Source: Olsenella massiliensis (GTDB lineage: Bacteria; Actinomycetota; Coriobacteriia; Coriobacteriales; Atopobiaceae). From it: DNA of 64,000 nucleotides. This document shows, piece by piece, positions 22,838-63,864 of this stretch. The stretch's first letter is position 1. Every line of letters starts with the position of its first letter. The stretch covers positions 248,001 to 312,000 of the forward strand of contig NZ_LN898211.1 of assembly GCF_001457795.1 (NCBI RefSeq). The letters run 5' to 3'. The notes beneath the pieces are model-generated. The model ran no database searches and was not told the origin of the DNA. It saw only the letters and a program-made list of their open reading frames with translations. A program made the translations under genes and the position numbers.

Positions 22838-22980
22838 ACCAACTTGTTTCACCACGCAAAATCGAGCTTGCGCCGTGGATGTGTCATCGAGCCGCGGCGC
22901 GCGTGTCGACGAGGCAAGTCGGGTAGGATGTGGGGGCATACGAGCGGCAGCCACTCACGTCTTCAAGGGGGCACGGGCAC

Positions 22981-24075
22981 ATGGCGTTTGACCCTCATAG
23001 GGAGGACTATCAGAGGATGGCCCTGCGCTTTGTCCGAACCTTGGACGGACAGGAGGCGGATGACGCGCTGCGCGCCTTCGCTCGCTTTGGGCGTCTCTAC
23101 AACCAGGAGAGCGACCTGCTTCCCCAGAGCGACGAGGAGCGCTCCTTCCATCTGATGGCGGATGCCGCCCACCTCATAGACTATGAGCTCCCCTTTGCCG
23201 ACGACGCTGACGCCGAGGGCATCGTCTCAAGGGCCCACACCCTCCTCGAGGAGGCGCTGTCCCTGGACCCCGCCAACGCCGACGCCCGACGCATGAGGCA
23301 GGCCGCCCTGATCGTGGGCTTTGAGCCCTTCTACGCCTTCCTCCTCGAGGGGCAGGAGCAGGTGAGGCTCCAGTGCGAGGAGCGCCGCGAGCGGGCCCTC
23401 TGTGAGGGGAACCATGAGCGCTCGTCGTTCGGGGCCTTCCTTGCCCTTGCCCCGTACCTGCGATGGCTGGCGTCCCTGGCGTCCAAGGCCCTGATCTGCG
23501 GCCACAATCACGCCGCCGTCGACGCCTGCGAGAGGCTGTTGGCGCTTGACCCCTCGGACGCGGCGGACGCCCGCTTTACGCAGGCCCTCGCCCTCGCCAA
23601 GCTGGAGGATGCGACGGGGCTCGACGAGCTCGAGCGGCGCGTCGGCGCGATGGACCTGGACCGTCCCCGCCGGCCGCAGGACGCCTGGCTCCAGCTCTCC
23701 CGCTGCGCGCTCGCCTACAAGCAGGACGACCTCGCCCGCGCGCGTTCATGGCTGCACGGCGTCTGCGAGGGATACCCCCAGGCGCGCGCGACGCTCTATC
23801 TGCAGAAGGAGCTGCCCGACGGCGTCTTCGCACGGCTGGCCCTGCCCCCTTTGAGCGAGGACGAGCTCATCGTTGCGGTCTCCGAGGCAACCGTGCTGCT
23901 GCAAGAGGGGCGCGACCGACGTGGCAGGGGCAGCTTTGGCGCGTGGGTCATGGACGAGGTCGCCAAGGAGCTCTCGCCCCGCGAACGTCGGGAGCTCGAC
24001 GAGTTCAGGGACGCCCAGGCCCAGGACGGACGTGACGAGGGCGGCTCGGCCCCCTCAAAGGAGCGGGGCGCCTGA
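22981..24075 (+). CDS. unknown helical-repeat protein A
   Basis: A 364-residue soluble protein with no recognised enzymatic motif. It is Ala/Leu/Arg/Asp-rich and helical. ALLEEALSLDPANADARRMRQ-like segments and VDACERLLALDPSDAADARFTQALALAKLED resemble TPR units around residues 85-105 and 180-210, so a scaffold or interaction role is plausible. ATG 22981 is nine bases after AAGGGGG. Its stop overlaps the start of the next gene (TGATG), so the two are translationally coupled and probably act together. No signal peptide or membrane helix. I do not recognise a named family. Confidence 0.7.
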   Translation: MAFDPHREDYQRMALRFVRTLDGQEADDALRAFARFGRLYNQESDLLPQSDEERSFHLMADAAHLIDYELPFADDADAEGIVSRAHTLLEEALSLDPANADARRMRQAALIVGFEPFYAFLLEGQEQVRLQCEERRERALCEGNHERSSFGAFLALAPYLRWLASLASKALICGHNHAAVDACERLLALDPSDAADARFTQALALAKLEDATGLDELERRVGAMDLDRPRRPQDAWLQLSRCALAYKQDDLARARSWLHGVCEGYPQARATLYLQKELPDGVFARLALPPLSEDELIVAVSEATVLLQEGRDRRGRGSFGAWVMDEVAKELSPRERRELDEFRDAQAQDGRDEGGSAPSKERGA

Positions 24076-25046
24076 TGGACGCGAGGGAGGAATACGTCCT
24101 GCGCATCGCGCAGCGACAGAGGAGGGGGCGGGGCCTGTCCGACGCCGCCTATGCCGAGCTGCTCCTTGCGGTGCGCCATGACCCAGAGCGCTTCGCGGGC
24201 GCCCCCCAAGATGAGTCCATGGCCCTGCTGGGACGCGCCCTTGACCGTTACGCCGCGTCGGTCGGCGCGGATGAGTCACGTGACGACGAGGAGTATCTGC
24301 GCGCCCGCCAGGTCCGCCTCTCGACGCTGCAGGAGGCGTGCGCCGCCATCCTGCGCCAGGACCCCTCCTGCGTTGACGCGCGGCTCTGCGCGCTCATCGC
24401 GCGCGACCTCGACCCCGACGACCTCCTGTGGCAGCTCAAGGGGCTCGAGCGGGACGCCCTGCCGTCCCTCGAGACCGCCGACGGCGGGCGGGGCGCAGAC
24501 CCGTGGTCCGACGTGCTCTGTCGTCCCGCGCTGCGCGTGAAGGCCGCAATCTGTCGGACGTACCTCGAGTCGGCCCGATACGACCGGGCGCGCAAGAGCG
24601 CCCTGGAGCTCTTGCGGCTCTCGCCCCTTGACTGCCTGGGCGCCCGTCACACCGCCGCGCTCGCATGCGCGCGCCTGGAGGACGAGCCCGGCTTTGAGGC
24701 GCTCGTCGCCCGCTTCGGGGGGCGAGGCGACGCATGGCAGGGCCTCGCACGGCTGATACTCCTGTTCAAGCTGGCGCGGCCCGCAGCGGCCCGGCGGGCG
24801 CTCGCCGGCTACGACCGCCTCTGCGAGGGCGGCGTCTTTGCCTTGCTTCGCCCCGTCTACGTGGAGCCCTACATGCCCGACCGCCCCGCCACCGCACCCT
24901 ACGGCTTTGACGAGGCGACGCTCGCCGTCCACGAGGCCGACGCCATCATCGTGGACGTGCCCGACCTCGTGAGCTGGGTTGAGTCGGTGCCGGGGATGAC
25001 CGAGTCCGCCGCCGCCTTCGCACGGAGGTCGGGGTTTGAGTTCTAG
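24075..25046 (+). CDS. unknown helical-repeat protein B, coupled to protein A
   Basis: A 323-residue soluble, charged, helix-rich protein, coupled to the preceding gene through a TGATG overlap. It shares the style of protein A: a mid-protein TPR-like stretch (YDRARKSALELLRLSPLDCLGARHTAALACARLEDEPGFEALVARFG, about 178-220) and a similar C-terminal segment (EATLAVHEADAIIVDV here, DELIVAVSEATVLL there). This suggests distant paralogues from a tandem duplication. No catalytic motif is recognised. Its stop codon is part of a hairpin shared with the convergent transketolase gene. Confidence 0.7.
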   Translation: MDAREEYVLRIAQRQRRGRGLSDAAYAELLLAVRHDPERFAGAPQDESMALLGRALDRYAASVGADESRDDEEYLRARQVRLSTLQEACAAILRQDPSCVDARLCALIARDLDPDDLLWQLKGLERDALPSLETADGGRGADPWSDVLCRPALRVKAAICRTYLESARYDRARKSALELLRLSPLDCLGARHTAALACARLEDEPGFEALVARFGGRGDAWQGLARLILLFKLARPAAARRALAGYDRLCEGGVFALLRPVYVEPYMPDRPATAPYGFDEATLAVHEADAIIVDVPDLVSWVESVPGMTESAAAFARRSGFEF

Positions 25047-25071
25047 CGCCCCGCGCCGCAGAGGGCGCTAG
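25043..25071. terminator. convergent hairpin containing both stop codons
   Basis: CTAGCGCC (25043-25050) pairs perfectly with GGCGCTAG (25064-25071). Each arm contains the TAG stop of one of the two convergent genes, so it probably serves as a compact two-way 3'-end structure. Confidence 0.55.
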
Positions 25072-26090
25072 CGCACCCTCCTGTAGCCGTCACGCACCTG
25101 CGCGGCGATGCCCGCAGGGTCAAGGCCGGCGCGCGCAAGCACCGCGTCGCGGGCGTCGGCCTCAAGATAGCGGTCGGGAAGCCCCAGCCTCAGCAGGGCG
25201 GTCCCCCTGCCGTGTTCGGCGAGGACCTCGGCGAGGGCGGACCCCAGCCCACCCACGACGCTATGCTCCTCGACGCTCGCCAGCAGGGCGGGCGCCCCCA
25301 GTGCGTCGATCGCCCCCGCGTCGAGGGGCTTGACGGTGGGCAGGGCGAGGACGCTCGCCTCGATGCCCTCGGCGGCCAAGAGCTCGGCCGCCCTCAAGGC
25401 GCGACAGCTGATGGTGCCCGTGCTCACCAGGGCCACGCGGGCGCCCGCGGCTCGGCGCAGGAGGTGCGGGCGACCGGGCGCGCGACCCACGCCCCCGGGA
25501 TGAAGGTTGGCCCCCCAGGCCTCGTTCATGCGCACGTAGGCGGGACGCGGTGCGCGCCCCAGCTCAAGGAGGGTCGCGGCGAACTCCGCGTTGTCACAGG
25601 GGCTCACGACCGTCATGCCGGGAATCTGCCGCATGACGCCCAGGTCCTCGAGGGCCATGTGGCTGGCTCCCAGGATGGCGGCGTCGCAGCCGCATCCCAC
25701 TCCCACGAGCGTCACCGGGGACGCCATGATGCCCAGGTTGACCCTCACCTGGTCGAGCACGCGCGAGGTGATGAACGTGGCGTACGAGGGCGCGAAGGTG
25801 GTGAGGCCCTCGTTGGCGAGGGCCGAGGCGACCTCGACCTGGTTCTGCTCGGCGATGCCGCACTGCACGAAGCCCTCCGGGCAGAGCTCCCGAAACCGTG
25901 ACAGGTTGAGTCTGCGGCCGTAGTCCGAGACGACGACGGACAGGCTCGCGTCGGTCGTCGCCAGGCGCCCCATGACCTCCCCGAAGACGTCCTTGTGGGA
26001 GAGCGTCGCCAGACGCCGCGCGTCCTCGGCGGACACCAGCAGGTCCGACGCCGCCGCCCGCCTCGTGGTTTGACCCTTAGCCTCTGCCAT
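25068..26090 (-). CDS. transketolase, C-terminal subunit (locus 1)
   Basis: A 340-residue protein holding the pyrimidine-binding and C-terminal domains of a split transketolase or transketolase-like enzyme. Features: YVVSDYGRR-like start of the PYR domain, the glutamate in FVQCGIAEQNQVEVASALA that activates TPP, and a Rossmann-like C-terminal domain ending RDGYRRVR. ATG 26090 lies within the end of the upstream gene, a 14-base overlap, implying tight coupling. Its partner, carrying the TPP-binding domain, is that upstream gene, which also bears a GntR regulator. Locus 2 at 61613-63425 is a separate, more ordinary pair. Confidence 0.92.
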   Translation of the reverse strand: MAEAKGQTTRRAAASDLLVSAEDARRLATLSHKDVFGEVMGRLATTDASLSVVVSDYGRRLNLSRFRELCPEGFVQCGIAEQNQVEVASALANEGLTTFAPSYATFITSRVLDQVRVNLGIMASPVTLVGVGCGCDAAILGASHMALEDLGVMRQIPGMTVVSPCDNAEFAATLLELGRAPRPAYVRMNEAWGANLHPGGVGRAPGRPHLLRRAAGARVALVSTGTISCRALRAAELLAAEGIEASVLALPTVKPLDAGAIDALGAPALLASVEEHSVVGGLGSALAEVLAEHGRGTALLRLGLPDRYLEADARDAVLARAGLDPAGIAAQVRDGYRRVR

Positions 26091-27789
26091 GACGGACGGC
26101 CTCCTCCCGGGCGTCAAGCTCGCCCATGGCACGCTCGTAGTCGTCCCGCGACAGGGCGTTGTCGTGCCAGATGACGTTGTTCTCGGCAAACGAGACGCCC
26201 TTGCCCTTGATCGTGCGGGCGACGATGGCGCGCGGGCGGTCCGTCCGCAGCGACAGCGCCCGGACGAGCGCCATGACGTCGTGGCCGTCCACCTCCTGGG
26301 TCTCAAAGCCAAAGGCGGCAAACTTCCGCTGGATGGGACCGTTGTCCATGATCTCTGACGTGGGCCCGTCAAGCTGCATGCCGTTGGCGTCGACGATCAC
26401 CGTGAGGTTTTCCAGGCGCTTGAAGCCCGCGAAGGCGGCGGACTCCCAGACGGAGCCCTCCTCGCACTCGCCGTCCCCGACGATGCAGAACGTCCGCGCG
26501 CCCGGATGGGTGCGTCGCAGCGCAAGGGCGAGGCCCGCCGCGTAGCCCAGGCCCATCCCCAGGCTTCCGCCCGAGGTCTCGATGCCGCGCGAGGGGTCGC
26601 GCTGGGGGTGCTTGAACAGCACCGCCCCCTCACCGAACAGGCCGCGGTCAAGGTCGTCCTGGCTGATGAGGCCCGCCCTGAGCAGCGCGGGATAGAGGGC
26701 CACGGAGGCGTGCGCCTTGGAGAGCACGAGCCGGTCGCGCTCCTCCCACGGCGTCGAGTCCTTGCCCGTCCTCATGACCCGCAGGAGCAGGGCCACCACG
26801 ATCTCGACCATGGAGAGGGCTCCCCCCAGGTGAAAGGGGACGCCCTCATAGCGATGGGCCAGGGACACGACGTCACGACGCACCTGCAGCGCCTGAAGCT
26901 CAAGCCGTCGCCTGAGGGCCGCCTCTTTGCCCGGGCCTCCCTGCAGCCGATCGCCGCCCCGGACGATGGCGTCCGTCTCCAGGTGACCTCGGGTGACGTC
27001 GTCCGGCAGGGCGCTCGCCACGATCGAGGTCCCGGGCCTCAGGCTGGTGAGGCTCCACTCGACGACGGAACCGTCATCCAAACTAATGACCTGCTCAAGC
27101 CCCAGCAGGGCGTCAGAGGGGGCGCAGGACAGGAGCGCCGCATGTCCCGGCCCCGCCTCAAAGGAGAGATACCGGACGTTTGACGCGGCGACCCTCTTTC
27201 CGGAGCAGCGCTGCACGGCGTCAAAGAGCGACTCGCGCTCAAAGTCCGCCTCGTCGAGCCGGGGGCATACCTCCAAGTTTGACCAGCTCTCCTGACACAC
27301 GATCGCATCGCCGCCCACGCTGCGGACGCGACGCATGAACAGCGCGGGCGCACCGACAAGAACGCCCAGGTGAGCGGCGATCGATCGGGGGGCGCCGACG
27401 ACCTCGCGCGTGACCACCCGCGTCGTGAACTGTATGCCGCGCTCGTGAAGGAGCGTGGCGAACGAGAGCGGAACATGGGCCGCGGGACGGGGCAGCCCCC
27501 CCTGCGCCACGAAGCTTCCGCTGCCCTTCTTGGTGATGATGTAGCCCTCCAGGGCGAGCTCTCTCAACGCGTGTCGTATGGTTCCCCGGCTCACCTGAAA
27601 CTGCGCGCAAAGCTCGGCCTCCGACGGGATCGCCTCGCCCGCCCTCCACGTGCGCGCGTCAATCTTGTCGCGCATCATGAGCTTGATCTGCAGATAGAGG
27701 GGGCTCGCGGGGACGTCGCCCGCAGCCGTGCCGCCCGCATGGCCCGTCACGCCCTCCGGCATGGGAAAGAACGGCCTCTGACGCGACAT
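26077..27789 (-). CDS. GntR/UTRA transcription regulator fused to transketolase N-terminal (TPP-binding) subunit
   Basis: A single uninterrupted 570-residue frame with three parts. Residues 30-95: GntR winged helix (SPLYLQIKLMMRDKI, IPSEAELCAQFQVSRGTIRHALREL, GYIITKKGSGSFV). Residues about 105-255: UTRA ligand-binding domain (LLHERGIQFTTRVV, ALFMRRVRSV, LEQVISLDDGSVVEWSLTSLRP). Residues about 295-570: transketolase N-terminal subunit, with VLSKAHASVALY, GGSLGMGLGYAAGLALA and the TPP/Mg motif GDG (438-440) to N469. No RBS plus start codon lies in the linker, so a separate enzyme is not expected. ATG 27789 has GGAGGGAGG upstream. The catalytic complex needs the downstream C-terminal subunit. 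Joining regulator to enzyme is unusual and suggests metabolite-sensing autoregulation; that is inference. Confidence 0.93.
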   Translation of the reverse strand: MSRQRPFFPMPEGVTGHAGGTAAGDVPASPLYLQIKLMMRDKIDARTWRAGEAIPSEAELCAQFQVSRGTIRHALRELALEGYIITKKGSGSFVAQGGLPRPAAHVPLSFATLLHERGIQFTTRVVTREVVGAPRSIAAHLGVLVGAPALFMRRVRSVGGDAIVCQESWSNLEVCPRLDEADFERESLFDAVQRCSGKRVAASNVRYLSFEAGPGHAALLSCAPSDALLGLEQVISLDDGSVVEWSLTSLRPGTSIVASALPDDVTRGHLETDAIVRGGDRLQGGPGKEAALRRRLELQALQVRRDVVSLAHRYEGVPFHLGGALSMVEIVVALLLRVMRTGKDSTPWEERDRLVLSKAHASVALYPALLRAGLISQDDLDRGLFGEGAVLFKHPQRDPSRGIETSGGSLGMGLGYAAGLALALRRTHPGARTFCIVGDGECEEGSVWESAAFAGFKRLENLTVIVDANGMQLDGPTSEIMDNGPIQRKFAAFGFETQEVDGHDVMALVRALSLRTDRPRAIVARTIKGKGVSFAENNVIWHDNALSRDDYERAMGELDAREEAVRHGRG

Positions 27790-27804
27790 CGTTCCTCCCT
27801 CCTT

Positions 27805-27880
27805 CTTGTCCAGGAGTCAACGGGCCCGTCCGCTGGAGTCCATAAGCTGGACAAGTGATATACAAGATAGACTATACAAG
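27805..27880 (-). promoter_or_regulatory. leader with inverted and direct repeats upstream of the GntR-transketolase gene
   Basis: CTTGTCCAG (27805-27813) is the exact reverse complement of CTGGACAAG (27847-27855), with the palindrome ACGGGCCCGT between. Next to it TATACAAG occurs twice with a 14-bp period (27859-27866, 27873-27880). Short AT-rich repeats of this type are expected for GntR/HutC operators, so they are candidate sites for the gene's own product. Confidence 0.5.
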
Positions 27881-28030
27881 CCTGATACATGATACGTACC
27901 GAAGGACCTGGGCCGCATCGGGCGTCGCGAGAAGAAGAGAATCAACACATCGCCTTGGCAGGATGGCGAGAGCCGCCTGACGCCGCGTCCTGGCGAAGGA
28001 TGGCAGGGATCTCCTAAGGCCGCGCTCTGA

Positions 28031-29064: not shown

Positions 29065-29102
29065 CTGTCTCTTATACACATCTAGATGTGGATAAGAGAC
29101 AG
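29065..29102. other. Tn5/Nextera transposase adapter pair (artefact), junction 1
   Basis: CTGTCTCTTATACACATCT directly followed by its reverse complement (one T-to-G change at 29091). This is the 19-bp Tn5 mosaic end used in tagmentation libraries, head to head, inside a conserved coding region. Confidence 0.97.
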
Positions 29103-29186
29103 AACCTGCCTCCCTCGCTTCTGAACGTGACGGCGCCCCGCCCCCACCTAGGCCACAGAGGTCCTTGGGGTTGGACAGGTGAAGCG

Positions 29187-29220
29187 CTGTCTCTTATACA
29201 CATCTAGATGTGTATAAGAG
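29187..29220. other. Tn5/Nextera transposase adapter pair (artefact), junction 2
   Basis: A second head-to-head mosaic-end pair; the right half is truncated after AGATGTGTATAAGAG. Read through, it gives the peptide SYTHLDVYKRQ, a familiar signature of adapter translation. Confidence 0.97.
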
Positions 29221-29446
29221 CCGGGCGTGCAGCAGACGTGCGCGGCGCCCGCCGATCGCGCCGCCCGAAGATACCCGTCGACGCAGGCGCTCACCCGACG
29301 CCGAGCAGCCGACGAGATGCGGCCCGAGGCGGCAAGCCCCTCGCCCAAGTTGCAGATCGTCGAGCTCTTGGCAAGACGACGGACGATGCCGCCCTCGAGG
29401 TCTGCCACGGCAAGGCGAGCCGTCACCGTGCCCACGTCAATGCAGG

Positions 29447-61612: not shown

Positions 61613-62572
61613 CTACCCGAGCAGCGCGCGCACCGTGCCGACGAGGTCGGCCGCAGTCAGGCCGTACTCCTCCTGAAGGTAGCCGGGAGTCCCCACGGAC
61701 CCAAAGCGCTCGACGACCCCGTGACGCCTGAACGGCGGCGTGACTCCGGCCTCGAGCAGCGCGGACGCGACGGCCTCGCCCAGGCCGCCTATGACGCCGT
61801 GGTTCTCGAAGGTCACCACGGCCCGCTTGCCCGCAGCCTCGGCGACGAGCAGGTCGACGTCAAGCGGCTTGATGCAGAACATGTCAATGACCTCGCAGGA
61901 GACGCCCGCGTCGTCAAGCGCGTCCGCCGCGGCGAGCGCGTCCTTGAGCAGCTGTCCCGCGCTCACCACCAGGACGTCCTCGCCCGGACGGACGACGTTG
62001 CCCCTCCCCAGCTCAAACGTCGATCCCTCCGCATACAGCTGGAACGACTCCTTTCTGCCCGTGCGCAGGTAGTTGATGCCGCCGCGCGCCGCGAACGCCT
62101 TGAGCGTCCAGGCCATCTGGACGGCGTCGGCGGCGTCGGCGACCACGGCGCCCGGAATGGTCCTCATGAGGGCGACGTCCTCGTAGGTGGTGTGCGTGCC
62201 GCCGTTGGCGCCCGCCGTGAACCCGGGGTCGGAGCCCCAGATGTTTATCGTGTTGTGCGCGTAGCCGCCCGCCATGAATATCTGGTCAAACGCGCGGCGC
62301 GTCGCGAAGGGGCCAAAGCTGTGCACAAACGGCACGAGACCCTCCGAGCTGAGGCCCGCCGCCATGCCCATCATGTTGGCCTCGGCAATGCCAACCTGGA
62401 CGTAGCGCTCGGGGTGTGCATCCCGAATCTTGGTGGAGAGCGACGCGCCGCCGAGGTCCGCCTCGAACATCACCACGCGCTCGTCCTCGCGCATGAGGTC
62501 GATGAGCGTGTCCGCGAACGTGTCGCGATAGGGCTTGCCTGCGGCGCCCACCTGTCGTGAGAGCTCAAACAT
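61613..62572 (-). CDS. transketolase, C-terminal subunit (locus 2)
   Basis: A 319-residue split-transketolase subunit with PYR and C-terminal domains. ADLGGASLS opens the PYR domain, YVQVGIAEANMMGMAAGLSSEGLVPFVHSF contains the TPP-activating glutamate, and GGTHTTYEDVALMRTIPGAVV is typical. Its start overlaps the upstream N-terminal subunit by eight bases. With PTS IIB further upstream it likely handles a pentose or ketose taken up by this PTS. Sequence is well diverged from locus 1. Confidence 0.93.
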   Translation of the reverse strand: MFELSRQVGAAGKPYRDTFADTLIDLMREDERVVMFEADLGGASLSTKIRDAHPERYVQVGIAEANMMGMAAGLSSEGLVPFVHSFGPFATRRAFDQIFMAGGYAHNTINIWGSDPGFTAGANGGTHTTYEDVALMRTIPGAVVADAADAVQMAWTLKAFAARGGINYLRTGRKESFQLYAEGSTFELGRGNVVRPGEDVLVVSAGQLLKDALAAADALDDAGVSCEVIDMFCIKPLDVDLLVAEAAGKRAVVTFENHGVIGGLGEAVASALLEAGVTPPFRRHGVVERFGSVGTPGYLQEEYGLTAADLVGTVRALLG

Positions 62573-63425
62573 CCTGCTCGCCCCCCTTGATCTGAGCCTC
62601 GAGCGCGAGGACGGCCTCGTCGGTCGCCCGTCGTATCTCGTCGTTGTTCCATTTCATGGAGTGGTTGTCGGCCGCCCGCTCAAAATAGGCGACGCCGGCG
62701 CCCTTGGTCGTGTCGAGCACGATGCAGTTGGCGCTCGCGTCGTTTGCCTTGGCGGCGTCTATGGCGGCGTCTATGGCGCGTATGTCCTGGCCGTCGACGC
62801 GCTGCGTCATGAAGCCGAACGCGCTCATCTTCTGCGCGAGGTCAAAGCCCGGCAGCACCGCGGCCGTAGGACCGTCCAGCTGCTTCTTGTTGTCGTCGAT
62901 GAAGACGATGCAACGCGACAGCCGGCGCCCGGCGATGAACTGGAACGCCTCCCAGCACTGGCCCTCGTTGAGCTCGCCGTCCCCCACGATGAGATAGGTG
63001 TACGCCGCCGACTCCTTCATCTTGAGCGCCAGCGCGATGCCCGCCGCCTCGGACGTGCCCTGTCCGAGCGACCCGGTGGTGGCGTCGACGCCCGGCGTCT
63101 TGAGTCGATCGGTGTGCGAGGGAAGGCGCGTCCCGCCGTCGTTGAGGGTGAGAAGCCACTCTCGAGGAAAGAAGCCCCTCTCGGCCAGCACCGAGTACAT
63201 GACCGGCCCGGCGTGTCCCTTGGAGAGGACGATGCGGTCGCGTCCCTGCCAGGTCGGATCGGCGGGGTCATGCCTCAGGTGGTGGGCGTAGAGGTCCGCC
63301 ATCAGCTCGACGAGCGACAACGAGCCTCCCACGTGCCCGTAGCCGCGGTGTCGGAGCATGACGAGCACGTCCTTGCGCAGCTTGGCGGCAAGAAGCGTCG
63401 CCGCCCGCTCGGTCTGTTCGTTCAC
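62565..63425 (-). CDS. transketolase, N-terminal (TPP-binding) subunit (locus 2)
   Basis: A 286-residue protein matching the enzyme part of the GntR fusion at locus 1, but without a regulatory extension. Seen: RHRGYGHVGGSLSLVELMADLY, RIVLSKGHAGPVMYSVLA, TGSLGQGTSEAAGIALA and the TPP motif GDGELNEGQ to the asparagine in DDNKKQ. GTG 63425 has GGGAGG upstream, giving VNEQTERAATLLAAKL; upstream codons are rejected. It pairs with the next gene and follows ulaB-like by 157 bases. Confidence 0.93.
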   Translation of the reverse strand: MNEQTERAATLLAAKLRKDVLVMLRHRGYGHVGGSLSLVELMADLYAHHLRHDPADPTWQGRDRIVLSKGHAGPVMYSVLAERGFFPREWLLTLNDGGTRLPSHTDRLKTPGVDATTGSLGQGTSEAAGIALALKMKESAAYTYLIVGDGELNEGQCWEAFQFIAGRRLSRCIVFIDDNKKQLDGPTAAVLPGFDLAQKMSAFGFMTQRVDGQDIRAIDAAIDAAKANDASANCIVLDTTKGAGVAYFERAADNHSMKWNNDEIRRATDEAVLALEAQIKGGEQDV

Positions 63426-63582
63426 GATTCCTCCCCTCTGGCGTCCGCACGCGCGTGCACGCCCCCGTTTCGCGCAAGCGTGGGCCGGCCCTGCCGACGA
63501 GGCAGGACAAACCCATGAAAACGGGACCGTAGGCAAAGAGCCGCTGCGGGCCAGGCGAATCTATCGTCTATTGTTGCGAGGG
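63426..63582. other. leader between PTS IIB and transketolase locus 2
   Basis: No gene is seen. GCGCGTGCACGC-type and GGCCGGCCCTGCC self-complementary stretches could fold, but no clear terminator or riboswitch is recognised. Confidence 0.35.
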
Positions 63583-63864
63583 CTAGGCCAGGTGCGCCTT
63601 GAGCTTCTCCTCGAGCTCGGCCTTGTCAACGATGTTCTTGAGGACGACCTTCTTCTCGTCGGGAATGCTCGACACGAAGTCGGCGAGGTCGCCGCCCACG
63701 ATGAAGAGGTCGGCGGCAGTGGGGTTGATGTCCGAGATGGTGGTGTGGTCAACCTCGATGTCCCCGTGGCCGAGCTTCTTGAGGACCTCCTCGGTGTTCA
63801 TGTGAACCATGAGGCTCGATCCCAGGCCCGACCCGCAGGCGCACATGATCCTCCTGATTGCCAT
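63583..63864 (-). CDS. PTS sugar transporter subunit IIB (ascorbate/SgaB type)
   Basis: A 93-residue cytoplasmic IIB protein. The N-terminal IMCACGSGLGSSLMVHMN contains the phospho-accepting cysteine in C-x-SGLG form of the lactose/ascorbate IIB fold; IEVDHTTISDINPTAADLFIVGGDLAD is the second half. It passes phosphate from IIA to the incoming sugar at IIC. ATG 63864 has AGGAGAACG upstream. The IIC gene is expected upstream, past the window edge. The sugar could be ascorbate or a pentitol-like substrate, given the downstream transketolase. Confidence 0.9.
   Translation of the reverse strand: MAIRRIMCACGSGLGSSLMVHMNTEEVLKKLGHGDIEVDHTTISDINPTAADLFIVGGDLADFVSSIPDEKKVVLKNIVDKAELEEKLKAHLA

Follow-up and report, generated by a model that had tools for sequence, protein, structure and literature searches.

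Proteins in which a DNA-binding domain is joined to an enzyme or to an enzyme-derived fold are known as a kind. PutA combines a ribbon-helix-helix domain with proline dehydrogenase, while BzdR combines a helix-turn-helix domain with a shikimate-kinase-like domain, the enzyme part having become a regulator. In the MocR/PdxR proteins, a GntR winged helix is joined to a domain with the aminotransferase fold; no UTRA effector domain is present, and the protein generally acts in regulation and not as a subunit of a metabolic enzyme. Two further systems come close, namely the GntR/HutC regulators such as NagR and DasR, in which the winged helix precedes a UTRA domain, and the split-gene transketolases with alpha2beta2 assembly (Protein Data Bank entry 6yak). 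Here, an open reading frame (ORF) is described that appears to add a new variant to this kind, a putative sugar-sensing repressor joined to a transketolase-type subunit. It lies in a stretch of 64,000 nucleotides from Olsenella massiliensis (contig NZ_LN898211.1, positions 248,001 to 312,000; hereafter the window, in which all positions are counted) and encodes, in one frame of 570 codons, a GntR winged helix, a UTRA domain, and the N-terminal, thiamine pyrophosphate (TPP)-binding subunit of a split transketolase. Literature searches, judged largely from titles and the beginnings of abstracts, returned no description of this regulator-transketolase fusion, in line with the initial annotation of the window, which knew of no described example of the domain order.

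The fused protein resembles each of these systems in part. As in PutA, its domains and motifs predict a DNA-binding domain and an enzyme domain within one chain that would repress its own operon; unlike in PutA, the regulator is a full ligand-sensing GntR/UTRA module and the enzyme requires a second subunit. It shares the GntR winged helix and the attached enzyme fold with MocR/PdxR but differs in carrying UTRA and in the enzyme fold itself, and the NCBIfam MocR/PdxR models match only residues ~29-98. An enzyme-derived domain is attached to a DNA-binding domain in BzdR also, whereas the main transketolase motifs are retained in 22 of 23 of the present proteins. The order of winged helix and UTRA is that of the GntR/HutC regulators, including NagR and DasR, to which a C-terminal transketolase half is added. 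Finally, the fold of the N subunit, its TPP motif, and an adjacent gene for a separate PYR/C subunit correspond to the split transketolase of 6yak; in this case the N subunit carries a regulator and the C subunit lacks the GEDGATHQ stretch of a paralogue in the same genome.

The reading favored here, at a probability of roughly 0.72, is that the gene encodes an autoregulatory enzyme subunit, a GntR/HutC-type repressor extended by the TPP half of a split transketolase-like enzyme. Under this proposal, the ligand-free dimer would occupy the pair of TGT boxes that precedes the fused gene, repressing the operon formed by this gene and the C-subunit gene; binding of a phosphorylated sugar to the arginines of UTRA would release the repressor and allow expression, and the transketolase half and the C subunit would form an alpha2beta2 enzyme. 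With repressor and enzyme subunit united in a single molecule, the two would occur at a fixed ratio of 1:1, yielding a simple homeostatic loop.

All three domain matches in the fused ORF exceed the Pfam gathering cut-offs, the Transketolase_N match itself spanning residues 320-553 (E 2.6e-31), and a strong Shine-Dalgarno sequence precedes the start. The single frame, its three domains, and the GDG...N motif were thus described correctly in the initial annotation. The fusion recurs in 25 of 140 genomes of the host's family, in 9 of 35 genera, the window's genome counted, and is not an assembly accident. In 24 of the 140 genomes, again including the window's own, the match is full-length and unbroken in frame. 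The twenty-fifth genome, G003, encodes the same order of domains in a single ORF, matched in two pieces and with a diverged enzyme half. One further genome, G028, carries a broken form, with the GntR-UTRA and transketolase pieces in overlapping different frames and ~110 residues missing between them. A total of 23 fused ORFs, including the window's, were extracted and aligned, and these underlie the counts out of 23 given here; the others are 47-66% identical to the window's. Outside the family, no full-length match was present among the matches listed for 396 genomes of the class (three candidates scored per genome, sorted by E-value) or for 396 genomes of the phylum (E up to 1e-70). That a frameshift, mis-assembly, or read-through joined two genes in one assembly might have been suspected from two adapter junctions (29065-29224) located 1.3 kb upstream in the same assembly, but no adapter match occurs within the fused gene and 22 other genomes carry this fusion as an uninterrupted frame, so that this explanation is refuted and keeps practically no probability. 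For the same reason, a stop or frameshift at residues 255-295, which the initial annotation had raised as the outcome that would disprove the fusion, is very unlikely.

An internal start producing the two halves separately was considered and rejected, as no start is conserved in the linker across the 23 fused genes. The initial annotation held that the linker contains no internal start. This does not apply strictly to the window, where in-frame GTG codons occur at 257, 303, and 308, the last preceded by AGGTG, and GTG308 is a possible start for this one species. Three of the 23 fused genes (L082, L084, L085) have no in-frame ATG, GTG, or TTG between residue 256 and ~315, and three others (L079, L083, L086) have only TTG there, with no Shine-Dalgarno match.

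The ratio of nonsynonymous to synonymous substitution rates (dN/dS) was computed on 11 selected pairs. In the regulator half it was 0.01-0.17 for five pairs with dS 0.2-0.95 and 0.00-0.17 for eight close pairs; the enzyme half gave 0.03-0.13 and 0.03-0.19, respectively, and the linker was looser. Decay as a pseudogene is unsupported by these values in the tested pairs, the exceptions being the broken G028 gene and the relaxed enzyme half of G003. In the samples searched, the fusion is a conserved, selected, and probably autoregulatory protein confined to part of one family.

The evidence for autoregulation comes from the promoters. A motif search in the upstream sequences, 200 bp each, of a non-redundant set of fused genes (17 of 23 promoters, with 6 near-duplicates omitted) returned actTGTaCAcaAc.TGTCCtgt with a log-likelihood of 199.4, against 67.4-69.2 in four dinucleotide shuffles (30 starts for the real set, 15 for the shuffles). 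Sites above 15 bits for this motif, acTTGTaCAnnAcnTGTCC, are located upstream of 21 of the 23 fused genes and beside the broken G028 gene, and none was found at five unfused syntenic transketolase loci. In the window's genome, the motif in its IUPAC (International Union of Pure and Applied Chemistry) form has a single exact match, at 27849-27865, within the predicted operator, which in turn lies inside the DNA target that the initial annotation had proposed (27790-27900). Across the 24 genomes with a fused or broken gene, 13 exact matches were found, all at the fused promoter; 24 family genomes without the fusion, chosen by hand, contained none. A search for a regulon beyond the operon in the window's genome gave 13 further matches with two mismatches, against 19 for a reversed-pattern control; in this genome, the fused protein probably controls no operon but its own. 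As a separate observation, a site with one mismatch in G018, identical to the operator of G045, adjoins a gene pair that by eye resembles DegV and PyrE.

A further line of evidence is provided by stand-alone GntR-UTRA homologues (41-50% identity), which were absent from the motif training set. At 8 of 17 such loci (drawn from L144-L159 and L096), sites above 15 bits occur within 400 bp upstream. These upstream sequences, 6.8 kb in total, hold 8 sites, compared with 2 in 280 kb elsewhere in the same loci, and 47 control loci with a total of 521 kb hold a single one. The two sites found elsewhere precede what, from gene order and sequence starts, is presumed to be the first gene of a neighboring operon. 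Since the motif is found at the fused promoters and at the promoters of 8 of 17 relatives outside the training set, it is very likely that the DNA-binding half works, probably on its own promoter, and that the fused protein retains the DNA specificity of the stand-alone regulators. The genes that follow one stand-alone regulator (L149) resemble triose-phosphate isomerase and YjbQ, both above the NCBIfam cut-offs, together with galactitol-type phosphotransferase system (PTS) IIB, IIC, and IIA components, an AraD/FucA-like protein, and a class II aldolase, these being below the cut-offs; several other stand-alone loci show a similar pattern of gene sizes after the regulator. These neighborhoods point to sugar-phosphate signals for this group of regulators. 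One genome, G032, holds both a stand-alone and a fused form.

For the ligand, comparison is possible with residues named in an account of NagR, namely the phosphate ligands R133/R135, S165, and Thr90 and the base-contacting R48/G69 (PMC4333415). The equivalents of R133 and R135 (window R154 and R156) are arginine in 23/23 fused proteins, and the S165 position (window S187) is serine or threonine in all of them. The E145 position is glutamine in 22 and histidine in one, the R211 position is glutamine in 23/23, and E222 is kept. As the phosphate-binding arginines are kept and E145 and R211 are replaced, UTRA likely senses a phosphorylated ligand, which is probably other than glucosamine-6-phosphate; neither the complete glucosamine-6-phosphate pocket (E145, R211, E222) nor the palindromic dre site of NagR and DasR is present. 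The equivalents of R48 and G69 (window R68 and G89), a DNA-contacting arginine of the recognition helix and a glycine of the wing, are invariant in 23/23. NagR R38 is replaced in all, by alanine, serine, or histidine, and this replacement would fit the T found in place of the first G of the NagR TGGT half-site.

Several observations weigh against the autoregulatory reading. On the DNA side, the motif was trained on related promoters, a relatedness that dinucleotide shuffles leave in place, and 12 of the 23 start codons were shifted by hand to the aligned N-terminus. Two of the 23 fused promoters (L068/L069, in G001 and G004) have no site above threshold, and a site within 400 bp upstream is likewise lacking at 9 of the 17 stand-alone loci. 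Sites with at most one mismatch are no commoner than those of the reversed control, either in the 24 genomes with the gene (72 versus 66) or in the 24 without the fusion (65 versus 57). The TGT boxes are in direct orientation, unlike the palindromic dre site of NagR/DasR, and a consensus scan found no sigma-70-like promoter. On the ligand side, the phosphate ligand Thr90 of NagR is replaced by alanine or glycine, so that the binding of sugars or sugar phosphates through UTRA, named in the initial annotation for HutC-type regulators, is supported by both phosphate arginines but not by this position; moreover, the UTRA part of an AlphaFold model has low confidence, with only three alignment rows covering it. 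On the enzyme side, the C subunit of the fused pair lacks the canonical acceptor-site motif (GxDGxTHQ), and both transketolase subunits of G003 are degenerate, the N half reading SKAY and GASD and lacking WH. Some of these points limit what may be drawn from the data. The totals at up to one mismatch being background-like, only exact or high-scoring sites carry weight; training on the fused promoters gives more weight to the exact-match counts and to the stand-alone homologues; and, with no sigma-70-like promoter found, it is by analogy with the regulator family that the protein is taken for a repressor and not an activator.

The enzyme half is most similar, among solved structures, to the N component of the split transketolase 6yak (E 1.8e-57), which is also the best structural match of the transketolase half of the AlphaFold model (mean pLDDT [predicted local distance difference test] 67.4; useful for this half only, with averages of at least 90 in 16 of its 28 ten-residue blocks and a dip at 381-410). 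The SK[A/G]H, KHP, and GDGE motifs and the motif asparagine are intact in 22 of the 23 fused proteins, as are, in the same 22, KG.G and the histidine of the late [W/F]H motif, in which L078/L079 have F instead of W. At least two further split transketolase pairs are encoded in the window's genome, both on tree branches different from that of the fused pair. One of them (L097) is likely the housekeeping transketolase, since it adjoins FtsE, FtsX, and RNase (ribonuclease) R, a context common to two family-f2 genomes (L099, L100). The C subunit of the fused pair has SDYGRRL where that of L097 has ADLAAAT, and AILGASHM where the latter has GEDGATHQ; that of L100 carries GPDGGSHQ. The Asp-Gly of the acceptor motif is missing in 8/8 clade C subunits compared (of 32 found) and also in the remaining pair of the window. 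These stretches presumably contact substrate, going by residue roles from yeast work, and their alteration makes a changed substrate likely. The transketolase half thus has the appearance of a non-housekeeping paralogue whose acceptor site is altered, and transketolase activity of the fused pair is uncertain.

The altered motif in these eight C subunits, together with the degenerate subunits of G003, would suit a pure regulator in which the transketolase half is a ligand-binding pseudo-enzyme in all members. This is improbable given that the catalytic motifs named above are intact in 22/23 and that dN/dS of the transketolase half is 0.03-0.23 across pairs without G003. For G003 itself, a draft genome of 40 contigs and 91% completeness, a natural pseudo-transketolase is possible: its C subunit is altered at SDYGRRL and its dN/dS is 0.29 and 0.59 in the enzyme half compared to 0.20 and 0.35 in the regulator half, with both frames open, the third codon position still changing most, and the regulator half and operator kept.

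The same genome bears on whether the enzyme half acts as a sensor, such that TPP or substrate occupancy, or assembly with the C subunit, would alter DNA binding and UTRA would serve mainly as a dimerization platform. The loss of catalytic motifs in G003 with retention of open frames (including a third-position excess in the N half), regulator, and operator would fit such a role, as would the presence of the C-subunit gene downstream of the fused gene, on the same strand, in 23/23 loci examined. Invariant phosphate-binding arginines are unexpected for a bare platform, and stand-alone relatives that have no transketolase half share the motif, so that this alternative is unlikely. A combined form, in which the state of the TPP enzyme and the UTRA-bound sugar phosphate jointly set operator binding, the joining was perhaps repeated, and G003 retains a dead regulatory module, is speculative and scarcely less doubtful. 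The interpretation in the initial annotation stands in part: a genuine fusion in one frame, the downstream C-subunit gene, and the predicted operator are supported, and the tuning of DNA binding by the substrate or product of the enzyme is unproven, because the genome has a separate split transketolase in a housekeeping-like context, because the acceptor site of the fused pair is altered, and because G003 has degenerate transketolase subunits with the regulator kept.

A transketolase pair lacking the regulator half was found at the same locus, beside the Ppx gene, in four g8 loci (L088-L091) and in G015 (L092). In a tree of the enzyme half with 76 rows, these syntenic unfused forms and the fused forms belong to one clade (Shimodaira-Hasegawa-like approximate likelihood ratio test support 99). 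A second tree, of 36 of the 76 rows (the clade and near outgroups), leaving out L094 (long branch) and L166 (identical to L088), has 2 changes of fusion state; a single fused clade was recovered in 4% of 200 bootstrap trees, and the approximately unbiased (AU) test gave p 0.243. The regulator-half tree, computed without L083 (regulator half identical to that of L086), has a main fused clade of 18 rows (support 100/98), six g29 sequences beside stand-alone regulators (96/85), and G008 apart. It requires 3 changes, of which its starred branches force at least 2, and a single fused clade appeared in 0% of 200 bootstrap trees (AU p 0.145). A single origin is neither demonstrated nor rejected by the tree of either half, and the joining may have been repeated. 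The related-locus set comprised 36 loci, and L036, L054, L063, and L055 were left out of the main alignment.

These comparisons also bear on a fusion without functional coupling, in which the domains would be independent and the sole benefit would be co-expression at 1:1, an arrangement compatible with autorepression. The linker is variable in length and fast-evolving, and the unfused pairs just described occupy the same locus, both as expected if the halves are uncoupled. Against this, the fusion is found in 9 genera, and the 3 changes counted on the tree of the regulator half may point to repeated fusion, hinting at an advantage of being joined, with the proviso that a single origin is not rejected. 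Uncoupled halves are accordingly a possibility to be kept in view, if a rather unlikely one. The autoregulatory enzyme subunit remains the preferred reading; the coordinates of its parts are given in Table 1.

Table 1. Coordinates of the fused gene, its predicted control elements, and its partner gene in the window, with the diverged counterpart in G003.
Feature	Position	Strand	Basis or remark
Fused ORF GntR-UTRA-Transketolase_N, 570 residues	26077..27789	(-)	single uninterrupted frame
GntR winged helix, residues 31-94	27508..27699	(-)	Pfam E 1.3e-17
UTRA effector domain, residues 117-251	27037..27441	(-)	Pfam E 2.7e-22
Variable linker, residues 252-294	26908..27036	(-)	no conserved internal start
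Transketolase N-terminal (TPP) domain, residues 295-562	26104..26907	(-)	best solved match 6yak
TPP/Mg motif GDGE(438-441)...N469	26383..26478	(-)	sequence motif
Shine-Dalgarno AAGGAGGGAGG, upstream of the ATG of the fused ORF	27794..27804	(-)	sequence
Predicted operator TCTTGTATATCACTTGTCCAGC, two TGT boxes 11 bp apart	27846..27867	(-)	motif search
Transketolase C-terminal subunit, 340 residues, Transket_pyr and Transketolase_C	25068..26090	(-)	Pfam
G003 fused gene and C subunit	L094 7952-9754 and 9744-10733		GntR-UTRA and operator intact

The C-subunit gene overlaps the fused ORF by 14 nucleotides (26077-26090), as the initial annotation had noted. Of the 22 other fused loci, 19 contain a Ppx/GppA gene cluster, frequently accompanied by DivIC and Mfd clusters (cluster names taken from locus L067). 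In the window, the Ppx/GppA gene, a single ORF in L067, is interrupted by two head-to-head adapter pairs left in the assembly (CTGTCTCTTATACACATCT and its inverse, some with 1-2 mismatches; 29065-29102 and 29187-29224), which we take to be Nextera mosaic ends. At 22930-25046 there are two tandem convergent ORFs (381 and 323 residues) with no Pfam match; 16 of the 22 other fused loci contain members of their cluster, in most cases two together. The remaining split transketolase pair of the window (61613-63536; 61613-63864 with the adjoining ORF) has a neighbor that by eye resembles PTS IIB, and a very long branch leads to the N half of this pair in the tree. Outside the family, the transketolase-like pairs nearest to the fused clade (L031:3907-5738 and L032:5010-6770), both on long branches, adjoin a short-chain dehydrogenase/reductase gene and a phosphonopyruvate decarboxylase gene, respectively, suggesting a special-metabolism branch of transketolases.

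The locus offers a natural case of a putative sugar-sensing repressor covalently joined to a transketolase-type subunit, with a conserved predicted operator. Such a protein could serve as a compact part for metabolite-feedback circuits. Given the unfused pairs, the motif-sharing stand-alone relatives, and a relative with a degenerate enzyme, the merging of regulator and enzyme becomes directly testable in one operon, and with it the question of whether such loops regulate by enzyme state.

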